Below, piece by piece: positions 19,012-40,509 of a stretch of 64,000 nt of DNA. The notes below the pieces were generated by a model. It did not search any database. It was not told the DNA's origin and was given only the letters and a program-made list of their open reading frames with translations. Numbering within the stretch: position 1 is the stretch's first letter; the number at the start of each line of letters is the position of its first letter. Location: contig CAIQBO010000028.1 of NCBI GenBank assembly GCA_903870145.1, forward strand, positions 1-64,000, read 5' to 3'. Made by a program: the position numbers and the translations under genes. This DNA is from an uncultured Burkholderiales bacterium (GTDB lineage: Bacteria; Pseudomonadota; Gammaproteobacteria; Burkholderiales; Burkholderiaceae_C).

Positions 19012-19026
19012 TCTAGTTTTACTACA
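19012..19026. promoter_or_regulatory. HexR/RpiR-type operator candidate ahead of TonB receptor
   Basis: TCTAGTTTTACTACA matches the HexR palindrome TGTARTWWWAYTACA at 14 of 15 positions. Its centre (19019) is 25.5 bases from the centre of the adjacent LacI-type box, the same distance as at the amylase promoter. Predicted binder: the glucokinase-HexR fusion encoded at 38562. Confidence 0.65.
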
Positions 19027-19037
19027 CAATCAGATCG

Positions 19038-19051
19038 TGCAATCGTTTACA
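19038..19051. promoter_or_regulatory. LacI-type operator candidate ahead of TonB receptor
   Basis: TGCAATCGTTTACA fits the LacI-family operator TGNAANCGNTTNCA at all fixed positions, with a central CG. It lies about 60 bases before the receptor start. The likely binder is the LacI-family protein encoded at 15265-16275. Confidence 0.65.
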
Positions 19052-19104
19052 TTCAATTTACAGGTTGGCACGCCTTCCAAATTTATTCTCAAAGGTCAAA
19101 AACA

Positions 19105-21873
19105 ATGACAAACAAACTTGAAAAGTCGCGCAAAGCGGCGCGGCAAACCGGCTTCAGGGTCAGCCCTGTTGCGGCTGGCTGCGCTGTTTTGTTGATCAGC
19201 GCCATCGGGGCTGCGCACGCACAGCAAGCCGCTGGCGAAGTGGTGGTGACGGGCATTCGCGCCTCGATTGAAAGTGCTATTGCAACCAAGCGCAATGCAG
19301 ACGGCATCGTTGAAGCCCTGTCGGCAGAAGACATTGGCAAGTTGCCCGACAGCACGGTGGCTGAGTCGGTATCACGCCTTCCTGGCGTCACGGCGCAGCG
19401 CAACAAGTCAACGGGTCGTGCGCAATCGGTGAGCGTTCGGGGCATGTCACCCGATTTCAACGGCGCGCTGCTCAATGGCCGCGAGCAAGCCTCCACGGGA
19501 GACAGCCGCGGCGTTGAGTTTGACCAATTCCCTGCCGAGTTGTTGGGTTCGGTGATCATTCACAAAACGCCCGAAGCTTCTTTGGTTGGCCAAGGTCTGG
19601 CTTCGACCATTGACCTGCGCACCGTGCGTCCTTTGGACTTTAACAAGCGCACCTTGTCTGCCAGTGCTCGCTCACAACGCTCTGGCGTTGACTCCGGCGC
19701 TGGAGAGGGCAAAGGCGATCGACAATCTTTCTCTTACGTCGATCAGTTTGCCGACCGCACATTGGGTGTGGCACTGGGCTTTACCAAATTCAAAGATGCA
19801 GGCGCCGAGCAGTTGAAGTTCAACTCCTGGGGCGGCTGGAACCGTGACATGACTTACGAAGGCAAAACGGTGCAGGTGCCTGGCGGCTTTACCGCTGACA
19901 CCGAGCAAAGCACCTCCAGCCGCGAAGGCCTGATGGCCGTGGTGCAGTACAAACCCAACAAAGACTTTGAGACGGTGTTGGACGTGTTCCAGTCCAAAGG
20001 CTCATTTGCTTTGAAGAAGACCGGTTTGGAAGGCGCTTTCCTCGAAAACTCTACCTACGATCCGAACGGCACATTGACCAATGCCGTGATCGATTCCAAA
20101 GGTTTTGCCACCAGCGGTACGATCGACAAGTACAAAGGCGTTGTGCGCAATCACCAGGAGTCGGGTGACGACAAGCTCGACTCATGGGGCTGGAACACCA
20201 AAATGAAAGTGGGCGACTGGAGGGCCACTGCGGACTTGTCACAGTCCAAAGTTTCTCGCTTGAGCCAGCGCTATGAAACCACCGCAGGTTTGCCTGGTGA
20301 TGCCAACAAAGGATCCGCCACAGACACCATTTCTTGGACCGGTTTCAATGGTACCAATTTGGCCGATACCGTCTTCAAAACAGGTTTGAACTACTCCGAC
20401 CGCTCCGTGATCAAGTTGACTGACGTGGACGGCTGGAGCGGGGGCGCAGCGTCGCCTCAAGCTGGCTATGTGGCATTACCCTCAGTCACCGACAAAGTTG
20501 ACAACGTTCGTTTTTCCGCGCGTCGCAATGTGGAATACGGGCCCATCTCTTCAGCTGAAGTCGGCATCAATTTTGCCGACCGCACCAAAGTTCGCACCAC
20601 ACAAGAAGGCCGTTTGTTCATCAAAGGCACTGACCCTTATGCTGGCACAACAGTGCCCGGCACTGGCACCAATGTCGCCGGCACCACGGGCTTATCGGTG
20701 GTTTCATGGGACCCTCGTGGTTCATTGGGTCCGATCTATGACTTGGCCAAAAAGGTTGACAGCGACATCTTGAACAAAGACTGGTCTGTCAATGAAAAAG
20801 TCACCACCACCTTTATCAAGGGTGACTTGGATGGAACGATGTTTGGCATGCCCTACCGCGGCAATGTGGGTGCTCAGATGGTCAACACCGATCAAAGCTC
20901 CACTGGCTTTAACGTCGACCGCGCCACGTGCACTGGAAATACTGCGGCAACTTGCCCCGGCATCTCTATTGGCAATGGCAAAACCTACAGCGATTTCAAT
21001 CCCAGCTTGAACCTGAATTTCGATGCAGGAAACGACCAAGTTTGGCGCGTTGGTTTGGCCAAAGTGCTGGCTCGCCCCAGCATGGGTGACATGCGTGCCA
21101 GCATGAATTTCTCTTATGACAGCACGCAAGGTCGCTACACTGGCGACGGCGGCAATCCTGGTTTGGAGCCTTTCCGCGCAAAGTCGTTTGACGTTTCTTA
21201 CGAAAAATACTTTGGCAAAAAAGGTTATGTGAGCATTGCTGGTTTCTACAAGAAACTGGACACTTACATCCTGAAAACTGCCACGCCGTTTGACTTCAAA
21301 GGTTTCGCTGGCGCCGGTTTGCCCTACGGCACGGTGGGCACTTTGACCCGTCCGATCAACGGCGAAGGTGGCGACATCCAAGGTGTTGAGTTGGCTTTGA
21401 ATGCACCCTTCTCCATGTTGACACCTGTCTTGGATGGCTTTGGTTTGATGGCCAACATGTCCAGCACTTCCAGCAGTGTGAGCTTGCCTACAAGCAGTTT
21501 CAGCACTCAGGAAATTGGCAAGGACAAAATCCCATTGCCAGGCTTGTCTAAAAATGTGAACAACTTGCGCTTCTATTACGAGAAGAATGGTTTCCAAGTG
21601 GCCGTGGCAGGGCGTCAACGCTCTGATTTCTTGGGTGAGATCAGCGACTTCCAAGACAACCGCCAGTTGACCTTCATCAAGGGCGAGACCGTGATCGACT
21701 GGCAACTCGGCTACGAGTTCCAACAAGGCCCGGCCAAAGGCTTGTCGCTCCAACTGCAAATGAACAACGCGTCTAACGCACAATTCATGCGCTACAGCAA
21801 TACGCCTGATAACATCGTAGAGAAAGTCAAATACGGCAAGATCTACCTGATGGGCGCGACTTACAAGTTCTAA
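19105..21873 (+). CDS. TonB-dependent outer-membrane receptor for maltodextrin-type alpha-glucans
   Basis: A 922-residue TonB-dependent receptor of the Xanthomonas/Caulobacter type used for carbohydrate uptake. A signal peptide ends near AHA-QQ (residue 39). The EVVVTGIRASIESAI segment (44-58) begins the plug and acts as TonB box region; plug motifs DSTVAESVSRLPGV and SVRGM follow; the rest is a 22-strand barrel ending in an aromatic residue (ATYKF). In Caulobacter the maltodextrin receptor MalA lies beside a tryptophan-halogenase homologue, amylases and a LacI regulator, and the same set surrounds this gene. The substrate is thus inferred from neighbours. A strong terminator follows. Upstream HexR- and LacI-type boxes suggest double control. 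Confidence 0.9.
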   Translation: MTNKLEKSRKAARQTGFRVSPVAAGCAVLLISAIGAAHAQQAAGEVVVTGIRASIESAIATKRNADGIVEALSAEDIGKLPDSTVAESVSRLPGVTAQRNKSTGRAQSVSVRGMSPDFNGALLNGREQASTGDSRGVEFDQFPAELLGSVIIHKTPEASLVGQGLASTIDLRTVRPLDFNKRTLSASARSQRSGVDSGAGEGKGDRQSFSYVDQFADRTLGVALGFTKFKDAGAEQLKFNSWGGWNRDMTYEGKTVQVPGGFTADTEQSTSSREGLMAVVQYKPNKDFETVLDVFQSKGSFALKKTGLEGAFLENSTYDPNGTLTNAVIDSKGFATSGTIDKYKGVVRNHQESGDDKLDSWGWNTKMKVGDWRATADLSQSKVSRLSQRYETTAGLPGDANKGSATDTISWTGFNGTNLADTVFKTGLNYSDRSVIKLTDVDGWSGGAASPQAGYVALPSVTDKVDNVRFSARRNVEYGPISSAEVGINFADRTKVRTTQEGRLFIKGTDPYAGTTVPGTGTNVAGTTGLSVVSWDPRGSLGPIYDLAKKVDSDILNKDWSVNEKVTTTFIKGDLDGTMFGMPYRGNVGAQMVNTDQSSTGFNVDRATCTGNTAATCPGISIGNGKTYSDFNPSLNLNFDAGNDQVWRVGLAKVLARPSMGDMRASMNFSYDSTQGRYTGDGGNPGLEPFRAKSFDVSYEKYFGKKGYVSIAGFYKKLDTYILKTATPFDFKGFAGAGLPYGTVGTLTRPINGEGGDIQGVELALNAPFSMLTPVLDGFGLMANMSSTSSSVSLPTSSFSTQEIGKDKIPLPGLSKNVNNLRFYYEKNGFQVAVAGRQRSDFLGEISDFQDNRQLTFIKGETVIDWQLGYEFQQGPAKGLSLQLQMNNASNAQFMRYSNTPDNIVEKVKYGKIYLMGATYKF

Positions 21874-21924
21874 GAATTTAAAGTCTATTCTTCCCCACCC
21901 AAAAGGGCCTGGGGGAAGACACAT

Positions 21925-21972: not shown

Positions 21973-23484
21973 ATGCAAAACCCTCTGATTCAAAACATTG
22001 TGATTGTGGGCGGCGGCACTGCGGGTTGGATGACGGCCGCAGCCCTGTCAACGGTGCTGCGCGGGCGTTACAACATCCGATTGGTGGAGTCTGATGAGAT
22101 CGGCATTGTGGGGGTGGGGGAAGCCACCATTCCAATGATCCAGCGCTTTAACAAAGTCGTGGGCATTGATGAGAACGAGTTTCTCAAAGCCACCAACGGC
22201 ACTTTCAAATTGGCCATTGAGTTCGTCAATTGGGGCCAGTTGGGCGACCGCTACATGCACGGCTTTGGCCCCATTGGGCAAGACCTGTGGACTGTGCCGT
22301 TTGAGCAATACTGGCACAAAATGCGAGCACAAGGCAAGGCGCAGGACTTGGGGCATTACGCCATCACGCGCGCAGCGGCGCAAGCCAATAAGTTCATGCC
22401 GCCGAACACAGATGTGGCCAATTCGCCTTTGGGCGACATCACCTACGCCTACCACTTTGATGCGAGTTTGTACGCCAAGTTCTTGCGCAAATTGTCGCAA
22501 GAGCGCGGCGTGGTTCGCACTGAAGGAAAAATTATTCAAGTCACTCAACGCGCGAGCGATGACCATGTGGACGCCGTGGTGCTGGACAGTGGCGAGCGCG
22601 TTGCCGGTGAGTTGTTCATTGACTGCTCTGGCTTTCGGGGTCTGCTCATTGAGGAGACTTTGAAGACGGGTTATGAAGATTGGAGCCACTGGCTGCCTTG
22701 CGATCGTGCTTTGGCGGTGCCTTGTGAATCTGCGCCGAAATTGCTGCCCTACACCCGCTCCACGGCCCACCGTGCAGGCTGGCAGTGGCGCATTCCTTTG
22801 CAAAACAGAATTGGCAATGGTCACGTGTTTTGCAGCCAATTTGTGAGCGAAGACGAGGCGGCTGCCACTTTGCTGTCCAACTTGGATGGGCGTCCTTTGG
22901 CTGACCCGCGTTTGATCAAGTTCAACACGGGCATGCGCAAAAAAGTTTGGAATAAAAATGTGGTGGCAGTGGGCTTGTCCAGCGGCTTTTTAGAGCCCTT
23001 GGAGTCCACCAGCATTCATTTGATTCAAGCTGCAGTCTCGCAGTTGATTGAATTTTTTCCGGACCAAGGCTTCAGCGAAATTGACGTTGAGACCTACAAC
23101 CAACAAAGCCGGTTTCAATTTGAACGGATTCGAGATTTCATCATCTTGCACTATCACGCGAACCAACGCACTGATTCAGAATTTTGGAAAGCCTGCGCGC
23201 ACATGGCGGTGCCGCAGTCACTCCAAGAAAAAATTGCGCTGTTTGAAAGCCACGGTCGCATCTTCCGCTTCAATGACGAGTTGTTCTCGCAAGTCGGTTG
23301 GTTGCAAGTGATGCAAGGGCAAAATTTAAAGCCCAGGCATTACAACCCTTTGGTCGATTTACAACCGCAAGAGAGCATTCACGAGTACTTGGAAAGCGTG
23401 CGCACGGTGATCGCTAAGTGCGTTGAGGTCATGCCTGACCACGCAGCCTACATCGCCAAACATTGCGCTGCCCCTGCGATGTGA
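21973..23484 (+). CDS. Flavin-dependent tryptophan-halogenase family protein of the glucan locus
   Basis: A 503-residue FAD-dependent protein of the tryptophan halogenase family. The Rossmann motif GGGTAGW is at 13-19, the halogenase Lys is at position 79 (TFKLAIEF), the WxWxIP motif is complete at 270-275 (WQWRIP), and the LEPLEST segment (340-346) carries the active-site Glu. All residues needed for a halogenase are therefore in place. Members of this family sit next to carbohydrate TonB receptors in Caulobacter and Xanthomonas relatives, where the substrate is not known. GGGAG lies 7 bases before the ATG. It comes 20 bases after the receptor terminator and converges on the amylase gene. 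Confidence 0.88.
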   Translation: MQNPLIQNIVIVGGGTAGWMTAAALSTVLRGRYNIRLVESDEIGIVGVGEATIPMIQRFNKVVGIDENEFLKATNGTFKLAIEFVNWGQLGDRYMHGFGPIGQDLWTVPFEQYWHKMRAQGKAQDLGHYAITRAAAQANKFMPPNTDVANSPLGDITYAYHFDASLYAKFLRKLSQERGVVRTEGKIIQVTQRASDDHVDAVVLDSGERVAGELFIDCSGFRGLLIEETLKTGYEDWSHWLPCDRALAVPCESAPKLLPYTRSTAHRAGWQWRIPLQNRIGNGHVFCSQFVSEDEAAATLLSNLDGRPLADPRLIKFNTGMRKKVWNKNVVAVGLSSGFLEPLESTSIHLIQAAVSQLIEFFPDQGFSEIDVETYNQQSRFQFERIRDFIILHYHANQRTDSEFWKACAHMAVPQSLQEKIALFESHGRIFRFNDELFSQVGWLQVMQGQNLKPRHYNPLVDLQPQESIHEYLESVRTVIAKCVEVMPDHAAYIAKHCAAPAM

Positions 23485-23494: not shown

Positions 23495-25123
23495 TCAACG
23501 AGGTTGCACCGCCCAGATCTGGACCGATTGAGGCGCTACGGTCAAGGCCTTGCCCGCAACAATTCTCTGCTGCTGGCGTTCTGATGGGTACAGTAGCTGC
23601 AAAGGATCCTGCTCGTTCAATCCGTCCAAAGTGATCTGGGCTTCTTGCTTGCCATAATTGATCAGCACCCAAGTTTGCTCTTTCCCCCACCGGCGCAGAT
23701 AGCGCAAGGTTTGGCCTTGCGCTTGTGCAAATTCATAAGTGCCGCGCGAGAGTGACGTGCGCGTGTTGCGCAGGTGGATCATGTCTTTGTAAAACGCCCA
23801 GAGCGATTGCTTGGTTTGCATTTGCGCTTGGGCGTGATGCGTGGTCACGTTGCCCGCCAAGGCGCGGTAAGGCGTGCCGGTGGTGAAGCCGGCAGTTTGT
23901 GCGTTGCCTTGCCAGCTGTAAGGGCCGCGAATGAAGGGGTCATCTGCCAGGCCTTTTGCGCCAGCCATGCCAATTTCTTCGCCGTAATAAACAAAGGGCG
24001 TGCCGGGCAAGAGCAAATAAGTGGCGGCGGCCAATTTGTAGTGCATTTCATTGCCGTTGACCTGATCCCACATTCGCTTGCCTGCAAATTGGTCGTGGTT
24101 GGAGGCGAAACTGGCCAAGGTGTGCGGCGCTTGCGTGTAGAAGTTGGCCACTTTGGCAATGGCCTGCGCATCGCCCTGGGCCGCTTTGGAAATGTCTGTT
24201 TCCAAACCAAATGCAAATGCTCCGCCACAGATGTCGGGGTTAGCGTAGTCGACTGGTTTGGCTGTTGCTTCACACACCACATAACGTCCGGGGTAGGACT
24301 TGATCAAGCGCGTGAAGTCTGCGGTGAGCGCGCGGCTCTCGGGCTGATCATTCCATTCTTTGGCGCTGTTTTCAATCAGATGCGGCACGGCGTCTAAACG
24401 AAAACCATCAAGCCCCCGGTTCAACCAAAAACGCAAACTGTCTTGGTGGTATTTCACAACTTGCGGGTTTCGCATGTTGAAGTCCGGCATGGGGGCGCCG
24501 AAGGTGGCCAGGTAACTGCCGTGCGGCGTACGGACCCACGGATCTTTGCCCCAGATGTCCCAGCCTTTGGGGGTGTCTTGACGCCACTCAAACCACGCGC
24601 GGTAAGGACTTTGCGGGTTTTGCAGGGTGTCTGCAAACAAGGGGTGCTCTTTGGCACTGTGGTTGAGCACATAGTCCATGATGACCCCGATGCCGCGCGC
24701 GTGGGCTTGCGCGATCAACTCATCAAAGTCTTGCAGCGTGCCGTAGGCCGGCTCAATGGCGCGAAAGTCGGTGGTGGCGTAACCGTGATCGCCATCGGCA
24801 CTTTTCGTGATGGGCATCAGCCAAATGCCGCGTATGCCCAGTTGTTGCAAATCATCCAGCGACTGTGTCAAGCCCTTTAAATCGCCGATGCCGTCGCCAT
24901 TGCTGTCGCGCCAACTGCGAACAAAAATTTCCATGAAAGCGCCATGCTGCCAACCTTCGGGCAAGGCGCTGGGTTGGATCTGGGCCTGGACGGGCGATAA
25001 ATCAATCAGGTCTTGCGCGTGCACAGGGCAAAGCCCAAGCAGCACGCTCCAAGCCCAGCCGCGCCCTGCTTTTTTTGCTGGCACAAGTTTTGAAAAAATG
25101 GTGGCGTGATTCAAATTGTGCAT
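23495..25123 (-). CDS. Periplasmic/secreted alpha-amylase family protein (GH13)
   Basis: A 542-residue GH13 glycoside hydrolase acting on alpha-1,4-glucans. A signal peptide ends near VHA-QD (residue 36). The conserved regions are visible: DYVLNH (150-155), GFRLDAVPH with nucleophile Asp244, VVCEA with acid/base Glu285, and FASNHD with Asp344. It closely resembles the upstream lipoprotein amylase through its whole catalytic part, so the two are likely tandem paralogues with different locations. The ATG at 25123 sits 2 bases after the stop of that gene; a TTG two codons earlier would overlap it. The pair should be one transcript. Confidence 0.9.
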   Translation of the reverse strand: MHNLNHATIFSKLVPAKKAGRGWAWSVLLGLCPVHAQDLIDLSPVQAQIQPSALPEGWQHGAFMEIFVRSWRDSNGDGIGDLKGLTQSLDDLQQLGIRGIWLMPITKSADGDHGYATTDFRAIEPAYGTLQDFDELIAQAHARGIGVIMDYVLNHSAKEHPLFADTLQNPQSPYRAWFEWRQDTPKGWDIWGKDPWVRTPHGSYLATFGAPMPDFNMRNPQVVKYHQDSLRFWLNRGLDGFRLDAVPHLIENSAKEWNDQPESRALTADFTRLIKSYPGRYVVCEATAKPVDYANPDICGGAFAFGLETDISKAAQGDAQAIAKVANFYTQAPHTLASFASNHDQFAGKRMWDQVNGNEMHYKLAAATYLLLPGTPFVYYGEEIGMAGAKGLADDPFIRGPYSWQGNAQTAGFTTGTPYRALAGNVTTHHAQAQMQTKQSLWAFYKDMIHLRNTRTSLSRGTYEFAQAQGQTLRYLRRWGKEQTWVLINYGKQEAQITLDGLNEQDPLQLLYPSERQQQRIVAGKALTVAPQSVQIWAVQPR

Positions 25124-25125
25124 GG

Positions 25126-26793
25126 TCAATTGTTAAGTTGAAAGACGGCGACAGATTGAGCGGGCATCGCCAAGGACACGTTGCCATTGGCAGTGACGGT
25201 GAAACTCTCCACATCACCGAGCAAAGCTTTCCACTTGTCACCCGCTTGCAAATTGTTCAAACTCAGCTGCAAGGGCGCAAGCCCATAGTTGAATACCACC
25301 CACGTTTTTTCTGAACCCAGGACCCGCTGAAAACCCATGCTTTGCTGCTGCGTCCATGCCGCCTCGTAGCTGCCGCGTGAGATCGAGGGCAAAGTGTTGC
25401 GCAAATTCAAAAGGCTTTTGTAAAAACTGTGAATGGATCCGGCAACGCCTATTTGGGTGGCTGCATTTTGACTGCTCACGTTGCCAGAGATGGCCCTGAA
25501 TGCTGTGCCCGTGCTGAAGCCCTTGGCATCCGCGGTCCAACTCATGGGCGTGCGCAGCGCTGCGTCACCCGATAAATTGGCGGCTGCGGCCATGCCTATT
25601 TCTTCTCCGTAATAAATAAACGGCGTACCAGGCATCAACAAGTAACTGGCCGCAGCCAATTTGTATTGAGCGATGTTGCCTTGGACTTGGTCCCACAATC
25701 GTTTGCCGGCAAAGCTGTCGTGGTTGGAGACAAATGCAGACAGTGCAGGGCTGCTGGTTTTGTAATAGGCATTGAGCTTTGCAATGGCATTGACATCGCC
25801 TTGCGCTGCGCCAGTGATGGCATCTTTCAAATCAAATGCAAAGGCTGCACCGCAAGACGTTGCAGCGGCAAAAGCCTGTGGGTTGGCCGGCGCTTCGCAA
25901 ACCATGAAGCGCTGTGGATACTGCATGACGGTTTGGCGAACTTTGTTCATCACCGTGTGATTTTCTGGCTGACTCTCCCACGCGCTGGGCCCGTTTTCCA
26001 CCAAATTCCCGACTGCATCAAAGCGAAATCCATCGACCCCTTTGTTCAACCAAAACCGCATGTTGTCGTGATGGAAGTTTTCTACATCTTTTTGCTTCCA
26101 ATTGAAGTCCGGCATGCTGGCGGTGAACCCTGCGAAGTAATAGCCATTGCCCCAACTGCTGGGGTACCAAGGGTTTTTTCCGTAGATGCCCCAACCCGCA
26201 GGTGCTGGGTTTTGCCACACAAAGTAGTCGCGCTGTGCATGGGTGCTTGACGAGGCCGCATTCAAAAACAAAGGGTGCTGGTTGCTGCTGTGGTTGATGA
26301 CGTAATCGATGACCACACCCATGCCCCGCAGGTGTGCCTGGGTCAAGAGTTTTTCAAAGTCAGCCATGGCGCCGTAGTCGAGCTCTATGCCTCGGTAGTT
26401 TGTGACGGCATAGCCATGGTCTCTGTCTGAACTTTGCGTGACGGGGAGCAACCACAGGCCCTTGACGCCCAAGTCTTGCAAATAATCCAAGCGGTCTATC
26501 AGGCCCTGCAGATCACCGACGCCGTCGCCATTGCTGTCTTGGTAGGCGCGCACATGAATTTGCATGAAGGCCCCTTGAGACCAATTCGCTGGCAGACTGC
26601 TGGCGGCGAGCATGCTGACCGCGCCGGCATCGGGCACCAACAGCGCACTGCCATTGTCCTGGCCACTGGCCGTGGTGGGGGCACCACCCCCACTGGCGCC
26701 GCAGGCGCACAGCGAAAACAAGCCCACGCAAAGGGCAAGATGTCGAAAGCGGCAAATCGACTTGCGGATGGCGTGAGGGTCGATAATTTTCAA
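25126..26793 (-). CDS. Lipoprotein alpha-amylase (GH13), probably outer-membrane anchored
   Basis: A 555-residue GH13 enzyme with a lipoprotein signal: basic N-terminus, hydrophobic core and lipobox LCAC, giving a lipidated Cys31 followed by a Gly/Ser-rich linker. Catalytic residues are Asp259 (GFRFDAV), Glu300 (MVCEA) and Asp359 (FVSNHD). I place the start at a TTG (26793) because AGAGG lies just upstream and a compact lipoprotein signal results; no in-frame ATG precedes the signal, and a TTG at 26865 is the other option. It is divergent from the pullulanase gene and shares with it a region holding LacI- and HexR-type boxes. Role: trimming polymer at the membrane to feed the TonB receptor. 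Confidence 0.87.
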   Translation of the reverse strand: MKIIDPHAIRKSICRFRHLALCVGLFSLCACGASGGGAPTTASGQDNGSALLVPDAGAVSMLAASSLPANWSQGAFMQIHVRAYQDSNGDGVGDLQGLIDRLDYLQDLGVKGLWLLPVTQSSDRDHGYAVTNYRGIELDYGAMADFEKLLTQAHLRGMGVVIDYVINHSSNQHPLFLNAASSSTHAQRDYFVWQNPAPAGWGIYGKNPWYPSSWGNGYYFAGFTASMPDFNWKQKDVENFHHDNMRFWLNKGVDGFRFDAVGNLVENGPSAWESQPENHTVMNKVRQTVMQYPQRFMVCEAPANPQAFAAATSCGAAFAFDLKDAITGAAQGDVNAIAKLNAYYKTSSPALSAFVSNHDSFAGKRLWDQVQGNIAQYKLAAASYLLMPGTPFIYYGEEIGMAAAANLSGDAALRTPMSWTADAKGFSTGTAFRAISGNVSSQNAATQIGVAGSIHSFYKSLLNLRNTLPSISRGSYEAAWTQQQSMGFQRVLGSEKTWVVFNYGLAPLQLSLNNLQAGDKWKALLGDVESFTVTANGNVSLAMPAQSVAVFQLNN

Positions 26794-26886
26794 AAAACCT
26801 CTATGGGGCAACTTCAAAGCCGTGAATGTAGAAAAGCTACAGATTTTCTGTCTTTCATGGCCCAATATATTCAGTGTTTACCCTAT

Positions 26887-26900
26887 ATCAATCGATTACA
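26887..26900. promoter_or_regulatory. LacI-type operator candidate between amylase and pullulanase
   Basis: ATCAATCGATTACA; read on the minus strand (TGTAATCGATTGAT) it fits 8 of 10 fixed positions of TGNAANCGNTTNCA, with one perfect half and the central CG. The centre is 26893.5. Confidence 0.5.
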
Positions 26901-26911: not shown

Positions 26912-26926
26912 TGTAGTTTTATTACG
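26912..26926. promoter_or_regulatory. HexR/RpiR-type operator candidate between amylase and pullulanase
   Basis: TGTAGTTTTATTACG matches TGTARTWWWAYTACA at 14 of 15 positions. Its centre (26919) is 25.5 bases from the LacI-type box centre, the same gap and order as at the TonB receptor when read toward the amylase operon. A TACGAT overlapping its right end could be the -10 of the pullulanase promoter. Confidence 0.65.
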
Positions 26927-31031: not shown

Positions 31032-31042
31032 GGTCAACAACT

Positions 31043-32810: not shown

Positions 32811-34451
32811 ATGAGCAAAGCATCTAACAACAACTGGTGGCGCGGCGGCGTGATTTATCAAATTTACCCGCGCTCCTTCATGGACAGCAATGGCGATGGC
32901 GTGGGTGATTTGCCCGGCATCACGCAGCGTTTGGATTACGTTGCCCAATTGGGTGTTGATGCGATTTGGTTGTCGCCCATTTTCAAAAGCCCAATGAAAG
33001 ATTTTGGCTATGACGTGAGCGACTACTGCGACATCGACCCTTTGTTTGGCAACTTGGATGACTTTCGCGCCTTGACCCAAAAAGCCCATGGCTTGGGTTT
33101 GAAAGTGATGATCGACCAAGTGCTCTCGCACACCTCAGACCAGCACCCCTGGTTTGAGGAAAGCCGTGCATCGCGCGAGAACGACAAAGCCGATTGGTAT
33201 GTATGGGCCGATGCCAAAGACGATGGCAACCCACCCAACAATTGGTTGTCTATTTTTGGCGGCAGCGCTTGGCAGTGGGACACGCGCCGCCGCCAGTATT
33301 ACATGCACAATTTTTTGACCAGCCAGCCTGACTTGAATTTTCACAACCCTGCGGTGGTGCAGGCCATTTTGGGCACTGTGAAATTTTGGCTGGACTTGGG
33401 TGTAGATGGTTACCGCTTGGACACGGCCAACTTTTACTTCCACGACAAACAACTGCGCAACAACCCAGGCCGCGGCAAGCCACAAGGTGAGGACCCTGCC
33501 GTAAGCGAAGTCAACCCCTACAGTTGGCAGTGGCACAAGTACGATAAAACGCAGCCTGAAAATCTTGCTTTCTTAAAACAATTGCGCAACTTGCTGGACC
33601 AATACCCCAACACCACCATGGTGGGCGAAATTGGCGACGACGATGGGTTGGCCACCATGGCCGAGTACACCAGCGGCGGCGACAAACTGCACATGGCCTA
33701 CAGCTTTGATTTGCTCGGCACCGACTGCAGCAGCACTTACTTGCACGGTTTGATGACGCGCTTCGCTGAAAAAAATGCAACGGGCTGGCCCTCTTGGGCT
33801 TTGTCCAATCATGATGTGGCCAGGTTGGCCACGCGCTGGAATGCAGACATGCCGGACGCGCGCAAATTGCGCTTGTCAGCCGCCTTTCAAATGTGTTTGC
33901 GCGGCACGCCTTGCCTGTATCAAGGCGACGAGCTGGGTTTGCCAGAGGCGCAAGTGGCCTTTGAAGATTTGCAAGACCCCTATGGCGTCACGATGTGGCC
34001 TGAGTTCAAAGGCCGGGATGGCTGCCGCACCCCCATGCCTTGGGACGCGCAAGCGCCAGACATGGGCTTTGGCAGTGGCGCACACAAACCTTGGTTGCCA
34101 TTGACTGCGTCGTACCGTGCGTTGGCAGTGTCTGCGCAAGAAAAGGACTCTGCCTCATTGCTGAATTTTTACCGCAACTTGCTGCATTGGCGACAAGCGC
34201 AAACGGTGCTGCTGCAAGGCGAGCAGTCGCTTCTGCCATTGCACGTGCAAGTCATGTGGTTTGTTCGCAGCCACGAAGGCCAGCGCGTCTTGTGCGCTTT
34301 TAACTTCAGTGATCATGCCGCTCAGTTGACATTGCCCCAAGGCATGCAGGCCAGCAGCGTTTTGGATTTGCCGGGCTTGCAAGGGGGTCTGCTTCAAGGG
34401 CAGAGCTTGCAATTCAAAGCCTTTGGCGGTTTACTTTTGAGTTTGGTTTGA
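32811..34451 (+). CDS. Cytoplasmic alpha-glucosidase (GH13)
   Basis: A 546-residue GH13 enzyme without signal peptide, so it should act in the cytosol on imported maltooligosaccharides and release glucose. Catalytic residues are Asp204 (GYRLDTANF), Glu273 (MVGEIGDD) and Asp335 (LSNHDVAR). The N-terminal WWRGGVIYQIYPRSFMDSNG is typical of the oligo-1,6-glucosidase/alpha-glucosidase group (GH13 subfamilies 17/23/31 area). The position between the permease and ATPase genes of the importer supports the role. Activity on alpha-1,4 versus alpha-1,6 bonds cannot be fixed by eye. Confidence 0.92.
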   Translation: MSKASNNNWWRGGVIYQIYPRSFMDSNGDGVGDLPGITQRLDYVAQLGVDAIWLSPIFKSPMKDFGYDVSDYCDIDPLFGNLDDFRALTQKAHGLGLKVMIDQVLSHTSDQHPWFEESRASRENDKADWYVWADAKDDGNPPNNWLSIFGGSAWQWDTRRRQYYMHNFLTSQPDLNFHNPAVVQAILGTVKFWLDLGVDGYRLDTANFYFHDKQLRNNPGRGKPQGEDPAVSEVNPYSWQWHKYDKTQPENLAFLKQLRNLLDQYPNTTMVGEIGDDDGLATMAEYTSGGDKLHMAYSFDLLGTDCSSTYLHGLMTRFAEKNATGWPSWALSNHDVARLATRWNADMPDARKLRLSAAFQMCLRGTPCLYQGDELGLPEAQVAFEDLQDPYGVTMWPEFKGRDGCRTPMPWDAQAPDMGFGSGAHKPWLPLTASYRALAVSAQEKDSASLLNFYRNLLHWRQAQTVLLQGEQSLLPLHVQVMWFVRSHEGQRVLCAFNFSDHAAQLTLPQGMQASSVLDLPGLQGGLLQGQSLQFKAFGGLLLSLV

Positions 34452-34511: not shown

Positions 34512-35648
34512 ATGTCACGCATTGACTTTCAAAATATCTGCAAGCGCTATTCACCGCAATTGCCCTTGACGATCAACAACGCTCAAATCACGATCGAGCA
34601 AGGTGAGTTTTGCGTTTTTGTTGGCCCCTCAGGTTGCGGCAAGTCGACCTTGCTGCGCATGGTGGCGGGCTTGGAGGAGATCAGCTCGGGTGACTTGCTG
34701 ATCGAAGGGCGGCGCATGAACGACTTGCCACCCGCACAACGCGGCGTGGCCATGGTGTTTCAGAGTTACGCGCTGTATCCGCACATGACGGTAGCCCAGA
34801 ACATGGCCTTTGGTCTGCGCGTGCTGGGCTCGGACAAAGCAGAGATTGATCGCAAAGTCAAAGCAGCGGCAGATATCTTGCAGTTGACACCTTTGCTCGA
34901 GCGCTTGCCCAAAGCTTTGTCGGGGGGACAGCGCCAGCGGGTGGCCATTGGCCGGGCCATTGTGAAAGAGCCCAAAGTGTTTTTGTTTGACGAGCCTTTG
35001 TCGAATTTAGACGCAGCCCTTCGTGTGCAAACGCGTTTGGAGATTGCCAAACTGCACAAAGACATGGGCTCGGCCAGCATGGTCTATGTCACGCACGATC
35101 AAGTCGAGGCCATGACCTTGGCGCACAAAATTGTTTTGCTGCACACTGGCGATTTGATTCAAGAGCGCGGCAGCATTGCGCAAGTGGGAACGCCCATGAA
35201 CTTGTACCACCGGCCTGCCAGTTTGTTTGTGGCTGAGTTCATTGGTTCACCCAAAATGAACTTGCTCTCGGGCCATTTGCTGCGGGCCGAAGAAAACTAT
35301 GCGCTGGTGCGTATTGGCGGTCATGAGATCAGTGTGGCGGTTGATGCACGGCATTTGCAAATGGGCGCGCAGGTGCAAGTGGGGGTTCGGCCTGAACACA
35401 TTGCAGTGGCAGGCAGTGGTGGAGGTGCGGGCATTTTGAGCCACTTGCATCACTTAGAGCGCTTGGGTGATTCGTCGCTTTTGTATGTGCGCGTCGGGGT
35501 GGATCAGCCGATCACCACCGTCAAAGTTGACGGCAGCTCTCAGGCCCTTTTTGGAAGCGCCTTGACGCTGCGCTTATTGCCCGAACATTTGCACTTGTTT
35601 GACAGCCAGGGGATGGCTTGCCGCCGCACGCTGGAGTTGCCCATCTGA
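34512..35648 (+). CDS. ABC sugar transporter ATP-binding protein (MalK/UgpC-type)
   Basis: A 378-residue ATPase that powers the maltodextrin importer. It has Walker A GPSGCGKST (about 38-46), signature LSGGQRQRVAIGRA, Walker B LFDEPLSNLDA and the His switch THDQVEAM. A C-terminal TOBE/OB regulatory domain (about 240-378) follows, as in MalK. The gene lies 60 bases after the alpha-glucosidase and ends 11 bases from the convergent large amylase gene; no terminator hairpin is obvious between them. Confidence 0.92.
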   Translation: MSRIDFQNICKRYSPQLPLTINNAQITIEQGEFCVFVGPSGCGKSTLLRMVAGLEEISSGDLLIEGRRMNDLPPAQRGVAMVFQSYALYPHMTVAQNMAFGLRVLGSDKAEIDRKVKAAADILQLTPLLERLPKALSGGQRQRVAIGRAIVKEPKVFLFDEPLSNLDAALRVQTRLEIAKLHKDMGSASMVYVTHDQVEAMTLAHKIVLLHTGDLIQERGSIAQVGTPMNLYHRPASLFVAEFIGSPKMNLLSGHLLRAEENYALVRIGGHEISVAVDARHLQMGAQVQVGVRPEHIAVAGSGGGAGILSHLHHLERLGDSSLLYVRVGVDQPITTVKVDGSSQALFGSALTLRLLPEHLHLFDSQGMACRRTLELPI

Positions 35649-35659: not shown

Positions 35660-38383
35660 TCAAGGCGGCACTTGCAGCACAGCGCTGTCCATCCACAGCG
35701 GGCTGGTTGCTGGAGCGCCGCCCATCTCAGAGGGGCCACCTGAGGGGCTGATGCGGCGGTAACCGTTGTCGTAATCCCAGGTGTTGACCCAGACTTTCAA
35801 GCCCGCCAAGGATGGCAGATCGGCCAGCAAACCTGGCGGGAAATCCAATTGAACAGTGCGCGCTGCATGGTCGACTTCAATGCGCGCAGTGCCTGACAAA
35901 ATTTGCCCCTCGGCTTGAGCGGATGCACCGCTTGCACTGAACAACACATTGGACCACCCATGCGCGCGCAAGCGGTAGTGCCAATGCCCCTCATCGGGCA
36001 ATTGCCCTTGCTGTAAAGGCATCTCGCGCACACCGTTCGACGCCGAGGGCTTGCCGATGAACACGCTGAAGGCCACATGGTCAAAACCATTGGCCGGGTT
36101 CCAGCCTTGACTCAAAGCGCCCATCTGCATGCGCAGGCGCAGCGCACGCTCGGCCCCCCAAAGTTGCACGCGCTGCAGGTCCAGCAGGCCCGGCACGTAG
36201 GTGCTGTCTTGCGGGTAGCGGTATTGACCGGTGGGGCCGCGGTCGTCACCGACCGGATCGTCGGTTTGCCCCAGCAGCGCCCATTGCCTTTCAAGTCGAA
36301 CCGTTTTGGCCTGGCTCACGCCAAGCAAGCTTGCACTCTTTCGCTCATGGGCCATCAGCACGATGCGCTGGTCTGAGGCGTCGGCCCATTGGGCTGTGTC
36401 GACTTTGACTGTCCAGCGCCTCCAACCCACTGGATCGTTGGCCTGGGGTTCAAGCCATTGCACTGATTGAGCGCTTTGCAAATTGCCATTGGCCACCCAC
36501 TTCAAATCGAGCTCTTGAAATTCTTGAGCTGAAGAAAATGGCCACGCGCCATTGACTTGAAAATCAGCATGGACACGCGCTGGCATGGCTTCAGGCAATT
36601 GCGGCGTGCGTTGGTCAGCCATTGAATGCACGGCCTGCAAAGGCTTGGCTGCTGACAGCGTGTTGGAAGCGCTTGCCCCGAGCCACACCTGGGCGCTGCG
36701 CGCTGGCAATTGCAAATTCAAAAGCGCTTGGCCGTTGGCCAATGGCCATGCCAAGTCCTGCGGCTTTTGGATGCTGGCGCCTGCAAAACCCCATGCGCCT
36801 TGCAAGCGCAAGGGGGCGGACACCTCTGGCAATCCTTGCATCAATGGCAAGGCGTCCAGCAGCACTGCATGCTCTGCCGTGTTGAACACCACCCATGCCG
36901 ATTGCCCTTCATGGTCCATGCGGTAGGCCAACACGCCAGGGCCTGCGGCATCGTCGCGCAAGAGCGTAGGAAGGCCGCGGGAGAAAACTTTGTTTTGCCG
37001 TCGCAGTGCTGTGGCCGCTTTGACAAACTGGTAAAGCGCAGACTCGGTGTCAAAGTGGTCCCGCCCTTGCGAGCCATAACCTGCTGCGAACATCGAGCTT
37101 CTTTGCTCAGTCAAGCCTTGCTCTGTGCCGTAATACAAAGTGGGGATTCCGGGCAGTGTCATGAGCAGCAGCAAACTTTGCCGCAAGGCCAAGGGGCTGC
37201 CGCCCTTTAAGAATCGGTCCACATCGTGGTTGTCTACGAAGGTCGGCATGCGATGCGGGTCGCTGTGGATTTGCATGACCTGCGCAATCCGCTGGGCCAA
37301 TTCGCGGGTGGGCTGTCCGCGCGCCATCACGTCACCCAAGCTGCCATACAAGGGGAAGTTCAGCATGCTTTGCAGCACCGGTTGACCCTTGGCATCGCGC
37401 ACATACGATTCGATCTTTTGCATCTGCTGGGTCTGGCCCGGTTTGTCCATGCTGAACCCCTCGCCAAAGGTTAAAAAGTCTTTGCGGCCAGTTTGGGCGG
37501 CCCGCATTTTCATGCCGGGGTACTTTTTATCTTTGGAATACAAAAAATCTTGCAGCGCATCTTGTGGCACAAAAAAAGCGGTGTCTACGCGAAACGCGTC
37601 CACCCCCACGCTTTCAATCCAGTGCCCGTAACTCTCGCGCAGCGCGCGGCGAACGACAGGGTTTTCTGAATTCAAATCGTCTAAGCCTGACATTTGGTAA
37701 TTGAGCTCTTGCTGCCTGTCCTTGTAATTGTGGATGTCGGGGCTCCAGTGGTAAATACCGGCCTTGCGGTGCGCGGGCTTGCGCGGATCGTTCATGTCAA
37801 AAGGCGCTTGCAGCGGCGCGGCCATGGGCCGGGAGGCTGCGTTGCGCTGGTAGCCTTGCTTGGGGTCCTGCGCATTCCAGTGGGTGTAGCGGAAAAAATC
37901 TCCGGTGTGATTCAGCACAATGTCTTGCACCAAGAACATGCTGCGTCGGTGCAAAGCGTCTGAGAGTTGTTGGTAGTCTTTCAAGTTGCCCATGTGCGGG
38001 TCGACTTTTTTGAAGTTGGAGGCCCAATACCCGTGGTAGCCCCCATATTCACCATTCCACCATTGATTGGCCACCGGCGGTGTGATCCAGACAGCGCTGG
38101 CGCCAAGGCCTTGGATGTAGTCCAAACGCCGGCGCACACCTTGCAAGTCACCGCCGCTGTATTTGGACTCTAGGCGGGGGTCAAACTCGTCGGCGCCCTG
38201 CTGGTTGTTGCTGGGGTTGGCGTCGTCAAAACGATCGGTCATGACAAAGTAGATGACCTGGTCGCGCCAATCGGGGGAGGGCACGTGGAGTTTCAACTTC
38301 TGTGCCGCCACTGGCCATGCCAATGCGCAGAGAAAAAGCAAGCCAATACTTGTAACTTTACTACTTTTGAAAGAAAATAACAT
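35660..38383 (-). CDS. Large exported alpha-amylase (GH13) with C-terminal accessory domains
   Basis: A 907-residue secreted GH13 protein. The signal peptide ends near VAA-QK (residue 27). The catalytic barrel has DIVLNHTGD (154-162), DAFRVDTAF with nucleophile Asp267, TFGEGF with Glu308 and FVDNHD near 390. After the barrel's beta domain (to about 560) come two further regions: an Ala/Gln-rich part, and from about residue 690 a module with DPVGDDRGP and KVWVNTWDYDNGYRR that resembles the glucodextranase C-terminal domain, likely carbohydrate-binding or surface-docking. A HexR-type box lies inside codons 7-11. An upstream in-frame start at 38407 is possible. It is divergent from glk-hexR. Confidence 0.88.
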   Translation of the reverse strand: MLFSFKSSKVTSIGLLFLCALAWPVAAQKLKLHVPSPDWRDQVIYFVMTDRFDDANPSNNQQGADEFDPRLESKYSGGDLQGVRRRLDYIQGLGASAVWITPPVANQWWNGEYGGYHGYWASNFKKVDPHMGNLKDYQQLSDALHRRSMFLVQDIVLNHTGDFFRYTHWNAQDPKQGYQRNAASRPMAAPLQAPFDMNDPRKPAHRKAGIYHWSPDIHNYKDRQQELNYQMSGLDDLNSENPVVRRALRESYGHWIESVGVDAFRVDTAFFVPQDALQDFLYSKDKKYPGMKMRAAQTGRKDFLTFGEGFSMDKPGQTQQMQKIESYVRDAKGQPVLQSMLNFPLYGSLGDVMARGQPTRELAQRIAQVMQIHSDPHRMPTFVDNHDVDRFLKGGSPLALRQSLLLLMTLPGIPTLYYGTEQGLTEQRSSMFAAGYGSQGRDHFDTESALYQFVKAATALRRQNKVFSRGLPTLLRDDAAGPGVLAYRMDHEGQSAWVVFNTAEHAVLLDALPLMQGLPEVSAPLRLQGAWGFAGASIQKPQDLAWPLANGQALLNLQLPARSAQVWLGASASNTLSAAKPLQAVHSMADQRTPQLPEAMPARVHADFQVNGAWPFSSAQEFQELDLKWVANGNLQSAQSVQWLEPQANDPVGWRRWTVKVDTAQWADASDQRIVLMAHERKSASLLGVSQAKTVRLERQWALLGQTDDPVGDDRGPTGQYRYPQDSTYVPGLLDLQRVQLWGAERALRLRMQMGALSQGWNPANGFDHVAFSVFIGKPSASNGVREMPLQQGQLPDEGHWHYRLRAHGWSNVLFSASGASAQAEGQILSGTARIEVDHAARTVQLDFPPGLLADLPSLAGLKVWVNTWDYDNGYRRISPSGGPSEMGGAPATSPLWMDSAVLQVPP
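38351..38365. promoter_or_regulatory. HexR/RpiR-type operator candidate at the start of the large amylase gene
   Basis: TGTAACTTTACTACT matches the HexR palindrome at 13 of 15 positions. It overlaps the codons for the signal peptide of the minus-strand amylase, where a bound repressor would block elongation, and is 153 bases from the box at 38504. Confidence 0.5.
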
Positions 38384-38503
38384 GTGATTGAGTTGCCAGG
38401 TGAGCAAAGAAAAAAGCTATTTTGCTTGATTTTTAGAAGAAATAGGCCATCATATGCTTTGAATCAAGAAGTTTTTCCAAATTCCAGCCGCGCTAAACTT
38501 GTT

Positions 38504-38518
38504 AGTAGTTACATTACA
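38504..38518. promoter_or_regulatory. HexR/RpiR-type operator candidate ahead of glk-hexR
   Basis: AGTAGTTACATTACA (minus strand TGTAATGTAACTACT) matches TGTARTWWWAYTACA at 13 of 15 positions. It lies 44 bases before the glk-hexR start, which suggests autoregulation, in the region shared with the divergent amylase gene. Confidence 0.6.
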
Positions 38519-38561
38519 TGTTTGACCGATTTTCAAGACTGAACTGCATTCTCTAAAGCCC

Positions 38562-40424
38562 ATGATTTCCTTTGACTCTCCACGCTTGATTGCCGATATA
38601 GGCGGCCTCTATGCCCGTTTCGCCATCGAGAGTGCCTACGGGGAGTTTTCACATCAAAAAAGCTTGCGATGCGCTGACTTTCCCAGTTTTCAAGCGGCTG
38701 TGACGGCTTATCTGGAGGGCTTGAAGTCCATCACCGTGGCGCACGCCGCGGTGGCCATTGCCAACCCGGTGGAGGGCGACTTCATTCGGATGACCAATTA
38801 CCACTGGCAATTCTCGATTGAGGCCACGCGCCTGGATCTGGGCCTGGACACCTTGGTCGTGGTCAATGACTTCACCGCCTTGGCCATGGCCTTACCGCGT
38901 TTGGCCGCGCAGGATTTTCGGCAGGTAGGCGGGGGGCAGGCCGTCAAGCACAGTGTGATTGGCCTGATTGGCTCGGGCTCGGGCTTGGGCGTTTCGGGCT
39001 TGATCCCTTCTGGCGAAGGCTGGACATCTTTGGGCTCTGAAGGCGGTCACACCAGTTTTTCACCCTCCGATGAGCAGGAAATGGCCGTGCTGCGCTACGC
39101 CTGGCGTCAATTTGAACATGTGTCTTTTGAACGCTTGCTTTCTGGCCCGGGGCTGGAGTTGGTGTACCAGGCTTTGGCCGACATGAATGCGCAAAAAGTT
39201 GCACCCCTGTCTGCGCCAGAGATCACGCGCCAAGCACTGGACAAGCAAGACGCTTTGTGCACCCAAACACTGCAAGTTTTTTGCAACATGCTGGGCACAG
39301 CGGCCAGCAATTTGGCGGTCACCCTTGGCGCGTTGGGTGGCATCTACATTGGCGGCAGCATTGTGCCTCGATTGGGTGAGTATTTTGACCGCTCTGGGTT
39401 TCGTCAGCGTTTTGAAGACAAAGGCCGCTTCAAACCCTATGTGGCGCAAATTCCCACCCTGGTGATCACCGCGCCTGAAGCGACGTTTCTGGGCGCCTCG
39501 GCCATCTTGGACGCGCAACTTCGCAACTTGATGAACGCCCCAGGCTCGGCCATCTTGTCGCAAATCAGGCGCGCGCGGGCTGACCTGTCTCCTGCAGAGC
39601 AGCGCGTGGCCGATTTGGTGCTGGCCAAGCCGCGCTCGGTCTTGAACGACCCGATACACGACATTGCCTTGGCAGCGCAGGTCAGCCAACCCACGGTGAT
39701 TCGGTTTTGCCGCTCAATTGGGTGCAAGGGCTTGTCTGACTTCAAATTGCGCTTGGCCTCGGGCCTGAGCGTTTCGGTGCCGATCACGCACTCTCAGGTC
39801 ACGCGCGAGGACTCGGTGCTGGAGTTGGGCGTGAAAGTTTTGGGCAACACGGCCAATGCCATTCTTCAATTGCGCAATGAGTTGCAGCGCGAAGCGATCG
39901 ACCGGGCGATTGATTTGGTGGCCGCAGCGGACCGCGTGGAGTTGTTTGCACTGGGCAATTACGCGGCGGTGGCGCAAGACGCGCAAACCAAATTCTTGCG
40001 CTTGGGTTTGCCCTGTGGCGCGCATACCGACCCGCATTTGCAAGACTTGATGGCCGGCACAATTTCGCCCAGCACGGTGGCGATCATCATCAGCAGTGGC
40101 GGCAAGTTGCCTGAGTTGATGGCATTGCAAGAAAAAATTCACCAGCGTGGGGCCTGCGTCATTGCGGTGACAGCCACTCAGTCGCCCTTGGCCCGCAAAG
40201 CCGATGTGGCCTTGGTGGCCGAGCACAATGAGCATGCAGCCACGCACCTGCCCATGGTCAGTCGCGTGTTGCACCTGCTGCTGCTTGATATTTTGGTGGT
40301 GGGCCTGGAAATGCGCTACGCCAGCAACCCACCCGAGGACTTGGGGCCCAAGCCGCCATCGCGCGAGACGCCCAGCACGCGCTTAGTTTCGAGCCCCAAA
40401 CCGGCCATTTCACACAGCCAATAG
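38562..40424 (+). CDS. Glucokinase-HexR (RpiR family) fusion regulator
   Basis: A 620-residue fusion: glucokinase fold (about 1-325), RpiR-type HTH (about 335-415, SQPTVIRFCRSIGCKGLSDF) and SIS sugar-phosphate domain (about 450-585, LFALGNYAAVAQDAQTKFLR). Such bifunctional glucokinase/RpiR proteins are known in Burkholderiales; the HexR part senses Entner-Doudoroff intermediates. Here the kinase motifs are altered: DIGGLYAR (12-19) replaces DxGGTNAR, and GSGSG (137-141) replaces GPGTG, while NDF (102-104) with the putative catalytic Asp and EGGHTSF remain. A separate canonical glucokinase is encoded at 43184, so this half may serve mainly as a sensor. Six HexR-type boxes in the locus are its predicted targets, including one at its own promoter. 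Confidence 0.92.
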   Translation: MISFDSPRLIADIGGLYARFAIESAYGEFSHQKSLRCADFPSFQAAVTAYLEGLKSITVAHAAVAIANPVEGDFIRMTNYHWQFSIEATRLDLGLDTLVVVNDFTALAMALPRLAAQDFRQVGGGQAVKHSVIGLIGSGSGLGVSGLIPSGEGWTSLGSEGGHTSFSPSDEQEMAVLRYAWRQFEHVSFERLLSGPGLELVYQALADMNAQKVAPLSAPEITRQALDKQDALCTQTLQVFCNMLGTAASNLAVTLGALGGIYIGGSIVPRLGEYFDRSGFRQRFEDKGRFKPYVAQIPTLVITAPEATFLGASAILDAQLRNLMNAPGSAILSQIRRARADLSPAEQRVADLVLAKPRSVLNDPIHDIALAAQVSQPTVIRFCRSIGCKGLSDFKLRLASGLSVSVPITHSQVTREDSVLELGVKVLGNTANAILQLRNELQREAIDRAIDLVAAADRVELFALGNYAAVAQDAQTKFLRLGLPCGAHTDPHLQDLMAGTISPSTVAIIISSGGKLPELMALQEKIHQRGACVIAVTATQSPLARKADVALVAEHNEHAATHLPMVSRVLHLLLLDILVVGLEMRYASNPPEDLGPKPPSRETPSTRLVSSPKPAISHSQ

Positions 40425-40463
40425 CTGACCCTACAACCCTACAAACCCAAGGGAAATCCCTCA

Positions 40464-40478
40464 TGTAATTTAGCTACT
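40464..40478. promoter_or_regulatory. HexR/RpiR-type operator candidate, distal site at tonB promoter
   Basis: TGTAATTTAGCTACT matches the HexR palindrome at 13 of 15 positions. It is 31 bases (about three helical turns) from the perfect box at 40495, so both would face the same side of the DNA. Confidence 0.6.
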
Positions 40479-40494
40479 GTTTTATTATTTTTTA

Positions 40495-40509
40495 TGTAAT
40501 TTAATTACA
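40495..40509. promoter_or_regulatory. HexR/RpiR-type operator, perfect palindrome at tonB promoter
   Basis: TGTAATTTAATTACA is a perfect 7-1-7 palindrome and matches the HexR consensus at every position. It is the best of the six sites and overlaps a likely -10 element. Confidence 0.75.

Follow-up and report, generated by a model that had tools for sequence, protein, structure and literature searches.

Loci in which a TonB-dependent receptor takes up glucans are already known. In the maltodextrin TonB loci of Caulobacter and Xanthomonas, the receptor is accompanied by a tryptophan-halogenase-like protein and amylases, and the regulators are of the LacI type. Repressors combining a sugar-kinase fold with a helix-turn-helix are also known, namely the ROK proteins XylR, NagC and Mlc. 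The present analysis concerns a stretch of 64,000 nt (hereafter, the window) from an uncultured Burkholderiales bacterium (GCA_903870145.1, contig CAIQBO010000028.1, positions 1 to 64,000, forward strand), a freshwater bacterium with a genome of 2,887,910 bases in 66 contigs. The window contains a glucan locus with the same kinds of genes but, unlike those with LacI-type regulators, it encodes a fusion of glucokinase (Glk) with an RpiR-type regulator (38562..40424, plus strand, 620 aa) and carries eight matches to a 15-bp palindrome, TGTARTWWWAYTACA. The resemblance of this fusion to the ROK repressors is an analogy only, as both the kinase family and the DNA-binding domain are different.

The closest described regulators belong to the RpiR family. 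HexR of Shewanella, Pseudomonas and other bacteria resembles the fusion in its RpiR helix-turn-helix and SIS domains, its related palindromic operators and its link to glucose catabolism (PMC5343134, PMC5489143). According to the excerpts of these papers, the HexR core in gammaproteobacteria comprises zwf, edd-eda and pykA (PMC5343134), and the Pseudomonas operator is described as TTGT-N7-8-ACAA (PMC5343134, PMC5489143). HexR binds 2-keto-3-deoxy-6-phosphogluconate (KDPG) and controls zwf, edd-eda and pyk, a task for which a separate HexR is available here, whereas the fusion is without most KDPG residues and is located in a glucan uptake locus. RccR of Pseudomonas is an RpiR repressor that binds 15-bp TGTAGT/ACTACA sites, paired at aceE (PMC5489143, PMC10810197), and its structures (PDB 8ju9, 8k3b) gave the best solved-structure sequence match for the regulator half of the fusion. 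It differs in binding KDPG, in controlling aceEF and the glyoxylate shunt, in having no kinase domain and, as the same excerpts describe, in also using 28-bp sites (PMC5489143, PMC10810197). Glk-HexR fusions, like the operators of HexR and RccR, are already known: the family NF010701 has the same domain order over residues 5-589 of the window fusion, which scored 758.4 bits and did not reach the cut-off of 920. Such a fusion was named in Paraburkholderia xenovorans within glucose catabolism, and not in a TonB glucan locus, in the available part of that paper (PMC12568896). The partial texts on HexR with TonB, amylase, maltodextrin or glucokinase contained no account of such a regulon; an earlier prediction of the sites is possible.

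We consider it likely (probability of about 0.75) that the glk-RpiR fusion, a HexR paralogue, uses the eight palindromes as its operators and would repress the block until alpha-glucan breakdown yields glucose. Sites were counted by pattern searches with ≤ 2 mismatches unless stated, and the reversed pattern served as the control. A preliminary description of this DNA had listed six sites, and all were present: that at 40,495 is perfect, those at 19,012 and 26,912 have one mismatch and those at 38,351, 38,504 and 40,464 have two. Two more were found at 18,869 and 26,827, with two mismatches each, and all eight lie between 18,869 and 40,509. At ≤ 3 mismatches, the window contained 12 matches against a shuffled mean of 2.31, and none of 100 shuffles reached 12. 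Genome-wide, there were 18 matches, and the eight in the block fall within 21.6 kb, or 0.75% of the genome, where approximately 0.13 would be expected under an even spread. Sites of equal density were not found elsewhere in the genome. The earlier statement that none occur outside the block was correct for the window at two mismatches and not for the genome, where 10 matches lie outside, among them one each at pyruvate kinase and edd. This test is somewhat circular because the consensus was partly drawn from the same sites, and the loci of other genera provide a more independent one.

The positions of the sites were compared among four related genomes, namely that of the window and the relatives G006, G028 and G013. 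At the receptor, the predicted operator TCTAGTTTTACTACA (19012..19026) ends 79 bp before the ATG and is identical in all three relatives. The upstream member of this pair, TGTAATTTAGGTACA (18869..18883), overlaps the stop codon of an antiporter gene 222 bp before the receptor ATG, and its counterparts are separated from the site nearer the receptor by 144 bp in G006, 138 bp in G028 and 129 bp in G013. Between the divergent amylase and pullulanase genes, TGTAGTTTTATTACG (26912..26926) lies 36 bp upstream of the start codon of the pullulanase gene (ATG, 26,962) and is directly followed by ATAAT, a likely -10 element, a placement that would be expected for a repressor; the 20-mer TGTAGTTTTATTACGATAAT at this promoter is invariant across the four genomes. 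The predicted operator TGTAGAAAAGCTACA (26827..26841) lies 34 bp upstream of the minus-strand TTG at 26,793, from which the amylase is likely translated, with a counterpart at the same place in all three relatives. A GGGTTTTACCC or TTTACCC-like element also occurs upstream of the receptor (~18988-18998) and pullulanase (~26877-26883) palindromes in the genomes compared.

Two predicted operators precede the fusion. The nearer, AGTAGTTACATTACA (38504..38518), is 44 bp before the ATG and has counterparts in relatives, with a weaker one (three mismatches) in locus L049 and none seen in L048. The farther, TGTAACTTTACTACT (38351..38365), is 197 bp before the fusion start and falls among the codons for the signal peptide of the large amylase. 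In this detail, the result differs from the earlier description, which had listed the promoter of the large amylase. A site approximately 197 bp before the fusion was also found in Limnohabitans loci without a large-amylase match there (L081, L082, L083 and L091). Before tonB, the perfect site TGTAATTTAATTACA (40495..40509) lies 140 bp from the ATG, with TGTAACTTAATTACA, TGTAATTTGATTACA and TGTAATCGAATTACA as its counterparts in relatives, and TGTAATTTAGCTACT (40464..40478) is the farther member of the pair. The spacing of this pair is 31 bp in the window and 32 bp in G006, G003, G012 and G035. For the pair spacings of 31, 85, 143 and 153 bp, a common phase was not apparent, as judged by eye only.

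When 60 genomes (own included) were searched for the fusion protein, it was present in the own genome and in eight others, seven from the same genus and the eighth from a different family. Related Limnohabitans genomes carry palindromes at the corresponding promoters, and the orthologous locus holds a large share of all genome matches: 8/15 in G006 (within 24 kb of a one-contig genome), 6/11 on the contig carrying the locus in G013 and at least 7/17 at the locus or its contig in G028. The best 80 fusion loci from named genomes, mostly Burkholderiales and many of them metagenome assemblies, were then analysed (1.37 Mb; Limnohabitans, Roseateles, Pelomonas, Rubrivivax, Undibacterium, Ideonella, Inhella, Aquabacterium and others). 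They contained 157 sites against eight reversed matches, counts that are not independent because the loci are related. Each site was assigned to the nearest gene only, with the start region defined as reaching from 450 bp upstream to 60 bp downstream of the estimated gene start; 148 of the 157 fell in start regions of glk, the fusion, the receptor, the large amylase, amylase, tonB, zwf or hexR (control, 3/8). A site was assigned to 52/63 usable promoters of glk, 13/15 of the large amylase and 30/79 of the fusion, and 49 of 50 divergent glk/fusion intergenic regions contained at least one. In several loci (e.g., L111, L112, L121, L123, L125, L126, L127, L129, L133 and L144), glk and the fusion are in tandem rather than divergent.

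With the Limnohabitans-type loci left out, exact TGTA-N7-TACA sequences numbered 92 (62 distinct) against three reversed in 1.26 Mb. The half-sites among the 62 distinct palindromes included TGTAGT (50) and TGTAGC (31), and the sites of Limnohabitans fusion loci are mostly TGTAAT. In 10 named genomes, 31 strict palindromes (TGTARYNNNRYTACA) were found, 20 of them within 40 kb of the fusion, where approximately 0.5 would be expected; the 40-kb width was chosen after the positions had been seen, and a computation without G064 gave 19/28 (expected, 0.45). An Ideonella plasmid carries a divergent glk/fusion pair with two exact TGTA-N7-TACA sequences between the genes, beside malEFG, amylases and a porin. 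The clustering in the window and the association of the sites with the fusion across Burkholderiales give good support to the earlier proposal of one local regulon comprising the receptor, the amylase/pullulanase pair, the fusion, the large amylase and the tonB operon.

The same description had named HexR itself as the regulator, and here our results differ. On sequence grounds, the fusion is a HexR paralogue and not the HexR of the cell, which lies beside zwf elsewhere. The own genome gave two RpiR matches. One is the fusion, and the other is a protein of 281 aa whose gene lies immediately after zwf, with tal-pgi transcribed divergently. The genes zwf, edd-eda and pyk are on contigs other than that of the fusion, which might nonetheless act on them as well. 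Sites similar to those of the block occur at zwf/tal-pgi, edd-eda and pyruvate kinase. The zwf/tal intergenic region contains two, 32-33 bp apart. The strong one, TGAAACAAAGTTACA, was seen in 19/19 of the genus loci examined; the weaker one reads TGTAAC-N4-GAACA or a close variant. The edd site, TGTAACAAAGTTACA, lies 48 bp before the start in the own genome; the same 15-mer precedes edd in G006 and G031, and in G013 and G028 the site is GGTAACTAAATTACA. The pyruvate kinase site, TGTAATTTAATTTCA, lies 16-17 bp before the start in the own genome, G006 and the fusion-less G031. A clean division of HexR and fusion operators by half-site was considered and rejected: it holds for zwf and edd (TGTAAC type) and fails for pyruvate kinase and Limnohabitans (TGTAAT).

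The fusion passed the RpiR family test (PF01418, 68 bits, cut-off 28.3; PF01380, 46.7 bits, cut-off 25). Against the HexR profile NF008451 it scored 203.7, below the cut-off of 296, which is strict because the zwf-linked HexR of the own genome also falls short (254.2). The 15-bp TGTA..TACA palindromes that serve as a criterion for HexR are present at the fusion locus and would belong to the fusion, although this class is common to RccR. A second HexR-like protein was present in 12/12 fusion-bearing genomes tested, in 10 at 68-90% identity to the own-genome HexR and in G065 and G069 at 42% and 40%. A quick tree (41 rows: 31/89 fusions, 9/22 stand-alone proteins and RccR as a weak outgroup; several long branches) placed the fusions in a single group (SH-aLRT 95) beside Limnohabitans HexR. 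Branching deepest among them were L156, L155 and L050, with zwf in the same locus (~9 kb away in L156). In Neisseria gonorrhoeae (L165, 6001-7833), glk and hexR are separate neighbours (gene order zwf, glk, hexR, pgi). Palindromes precede zwf at 3429 and 3585, the KDPG signature is SHRHSTS and the loop is GGTN; this arrangement is a likely pre-fusion state. Glk and RpiR matches also lie side by side in G048 and G056.

The sensory half of the fusion was compared with RccR, in which nine residues bind KDPG according to the available part of PMC10810197. Seven positions could be mapped, Lys270 and Arg277 being beyond the aligned part of RccR. Among 83 distinct fusions, Arg152 and Ser183 were each retained in 82, Ser185 in 49, His164 in 11, Ser139 in three, and His148 and Ser188 in one each. 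The corresponding numbers for 22 stand-alone HexRs, which are not independent because 19 are from the same genus, were 22 for Ser139, Arg152, His164 and Ser183, 21 for His148 and Ser185, and none for Ser188, with Ser or Thr at position 188 in 21/22 and Thr in most. At the seven positions, the window fusion has Y, T, R, H, S, G and L versus S, H, R, H, S, S and S in RccR. The C-termini of the genus HexRs are Lys/Arg-rich (MKNNLRSKRY in the own genome); the tail of the fusion differs and often ends in SHSR or SHSQ (40380-40424 in the window), and no clear counterpart of the Lys/Arg segment was found in the fusion C-termini compared. Residues 589-620 of the window fusion have a predicted local distance difference test (pLDDT) score below 50 in the predicted model. 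As most of the pocket residues are replaced, release of the fusion by KDPG, implied in the preliminary description, is doubtful.

The other half passed the glucokinase test (PF02685, 354.7 bits; Foldseek of the model against 1sz2, target TM 0.93). The glucokinase domain covers residues ~9-317, the RpiR helix-turn-helix 331-403 and the SIS domain 455-580. Because the predicted TM score (pTM) of the AlphaFold model was 0.54 (mean pLDDT, 78.7), the model was used for the domain folds only and not for their arrangement. The motifs NDF, EGGH and the ER of HVSFER, which we take to lie around glucose with a role as in E. coli Glk, were found in 89/89 fusions. The phosphate loop was GGTN in 48 of 67 distinct rows of partner Glk proteins (GGSN 13, GGTH 4, GGTT 1, gap 1). 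Among 72 distinct non-Limnohabitans fusions, it was GGTY or GGTF in 61, with one GGTN and one GATN, and the 11 distinct Limnohabitans-type fusions had GGLY (8, including the window), GRVY (2) or GRIY (1). This change may abolish kinase activity, which the loss of the loop Thr and, in some fusions, of a Gly makes likely.

Several observations weigh against the fusion as the owner of these sites. The reversed pattern gave 34 matches in the own genome against 18 for the real one, was the commoner of the two in 11/12 genus genomes and, as a strict palindrome, numbered 56 against 31 in the 10 named genomes together. The totals of 12 genus members, 4 to 17 in five fusion-less genomes and 9 to 27 in seven with the fusion, fail to separate the two groups because the ranges are similar, and only 21/43 usable receptor promoters had an assigned site under the nearest-gene assignment. 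The signal therefore lies in the clustering and not in the genome total, which is below that of the control. That total is also what speaks for chance matches in AT-rich promoters, an origin we rejected as highly improbable in view of the eight of 18 sites in 0.75% of the genome, their conservation at orthologous promoters and the 157 versus eight matches in fusion loci. A stronger objection is that the ordinary zwf-linked HexR might own the sites and run both glycolysis and the glucan block on a KDPG signal, with the fusion mainly a kinase. The own genome has a HexR with an intact pocket and can make KDPG, since edd and eda are present above cut-off; the pyruvate kinase site is one mismatch from the pattern, so that HexR and fusion sites overlap in sequence; and G031, which has neither the fusion nor the glucan receptor, keeps sites at tonB and at a gene for a tetratricopeptide-repeat (TPR) protein. 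As G031 is without the fusion, HexR may bind these two sites, or they may be relics. Nevertheless, the TGTAAC-type half-sites of zwf and edd are absent from most fusion-locus sites, the sites accompany the fusion across genera, including on the Ideonella plasmid, and the strict palindromes cluster at the fusion in named genomes having both proteins. HexR ownership thus appears improbable.

The LacI-family regulator encoded at the left edge of the block (15265..16347, minus strand; PF00356, PF13377; one of four LacI matches in the genome) may instead be the main glucan switch, leaving the RpiR sites to fine-tune, which also counts against our interpretation. A LacI-type site, TGCAATCGTTTACA (19038..19051), the only perfect TGNAANCGNTTNCA match in the window, starts 26 bp after the start of the 19,012 palindrome, with the same sequence and spacing in G006. 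A second, ATCAATCGATTACA (26887..26900, two mismatches), starts 25 bp before that at 26,912, and its G006 counterpart TTCAATCGATTACA has one mismatch at the same spacing; it is weak alone because the window holds 29 such matches at ≤ 2 mismatches. However, no LacI-type site was found at the receptor and pullulanase places in G028 and G013, both of which keep the palindromes; G028 has one two-mismatch match 29 bp upstream of the receptor palindrome. Control mainly by LacI is therefore unlikely, and the LacI regulator may add a second input in the window species and G006. The releasing signal is a further point of choice. It is conceivable but rather doubtful that, like HexR and RccR, the fusion responds to KDPG or a different sugar phosphate by way of a modified SIS pocket: the SIS domain is retained, Arg152 and Ser183 equivalents are nearly invariant, Ser185 is kept in 49/83 fusions and the basal fusion L156 keeps Ser139, His148, Arg152, Ser183 and Ser185, whereas Ser139, His148, His164 and Ser188 are mostly lost (position 188 being Thr in most stand-alone HexRs too) and the basic C-terminal segment has no clear counterpart. 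Sensing of glucose, alone or together with a nucleotide, by the glucokinase domain seems somewhat more likely. In its fuller form, in which the kinase half senses glucose, phosphorylates it poorly or not at all and reports to the DNA-binding half, with the KDPG pocket of the SIS domain given up, the idea is tentative. Its evolutionary path would lead from separate glk and hexR, as in Neisseria, through zwf-linked fusions to glucan-locus fusions, with GGTN and a mostly intact pocket at the Neisseria stage and loop damage clearest in Limnohabitans. Of the three basal zwf-linked fusions, two (L050 and L155) already show a changed pocket, a point that counts against our main interpretation: pocket loss is not specific to the glucan role and was rejected as a mark of it.

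If the fusion is the regulator, it would sit on the eight operators in the absence of glucan and keep the receptor, the enzymes, its own gene and tonB low. It would act on its own gene, on the receptor, on both divergent promoters of the amylase/pullulanase pair and on the tonB-exb-glk operon, with the maltodextrin ATP-binding cassette (ABC) operon controlled through the pullulanase promoter. Maltodextrin would enter via the receptor and the ABC system and be cut to glucose, which, in the kinase-like half, could loosen the DNA-binding half, whereas the second glucokinase, with its GGTN loop, would pass glucose into metabolism. Beyond the existence and conservation of the sites, we infer these steps, including binding by the fusion, repression and the releasing signal, from the sequences.

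The block contains, on the plus strand, the TonB-dependent receptor (19105..21873; TIGR01782, 540.6 bits, cut-off 310) and a tryptophan halogenase-like flavoprotein (21973..23484; PF04820, 656.8 bits), followed on the minus strand by two alpha-amylase family enzymes, one at 23495..25129 and one with PF00128 (25126..26793 from the likely TTG start; longest open reading frame (ORF) to 26,865). The plus strand then encodes a pullulanase-type alpha-1,6-glucosidase (26962..29733; TIGR02103, 858 bits, cut-off 697.6), a sugar ABC transporter binding protein (29730..31031; PF01547), a MalF-like permease (30929..31957; true start probably later), a MalG-like permease (31954..32790), an alpha-glucosidase-like protein of the alpha-amylase superfamily (32811..34451; NF051899, 827 bits, below the cut-off of 900) and a MalK/UgpC-like ATPase (34512..35648; NF008653, 440 bits, cut-off 432). 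The large alpha-amylase with a glucodextranase C-terminal module (35660..38383, minus strand; PF00128, PF09985; likely start ATG 38,383) precedes the fusion, in which PF02685, PF01418 and PF01380 were all above cut-off. The plus-strand operon downstream comprises tonB (40649..41305; TIGR01352, 60.1 bits), an exbB/tolQ-type gene (41397..42260), two exbD/tolR-type genes (42296..42712 and 42728..43159) and the second, stand-alone glucokinase with a canonical GGTN loop (43184..44155; NF001416, 388.4 bits, cut-off 383).

The suggestion that the system has its own TonB motor is uncertain. This tonB is the best of four TonB_C matches (67.5 bits) in a genome with nine receptor matches, and G031 and G001 keep tonB near a glk without the glucan receptor. 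The G031 locus (L076) retains the tonB-exbB-exbD-exbD-glk operon with palindromes at 5116 and 6876, and looks as if its middle had been lost or never gained. Upstream of the receptor, an antiporter gene (17608-18873) sits between the TPR-protein gene (region 16326-18873) and the receptor, which adjoin in G006; the TPR start is probably near 17591 because the longest TPR ORF runs over the antiporter gene. Another member of this receptor family (42% identity) is encoded at G000:C3:66582-69566, beside another LacI gene.

These findings also correct some automatic names; for example, the fusion on the Ideonella plasmid was annotated as a glucokinase only. If our interpretation is true, the fusion would provide a simple protein for testing whether a kinase domain can become a transcriptional sensor. 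It would also mean that, in bacteria of fresh water and soil, a regulator of central metabolism was duplicated, fused to the first enzyme of its pathway and given a new role in polysaccharide uptake.

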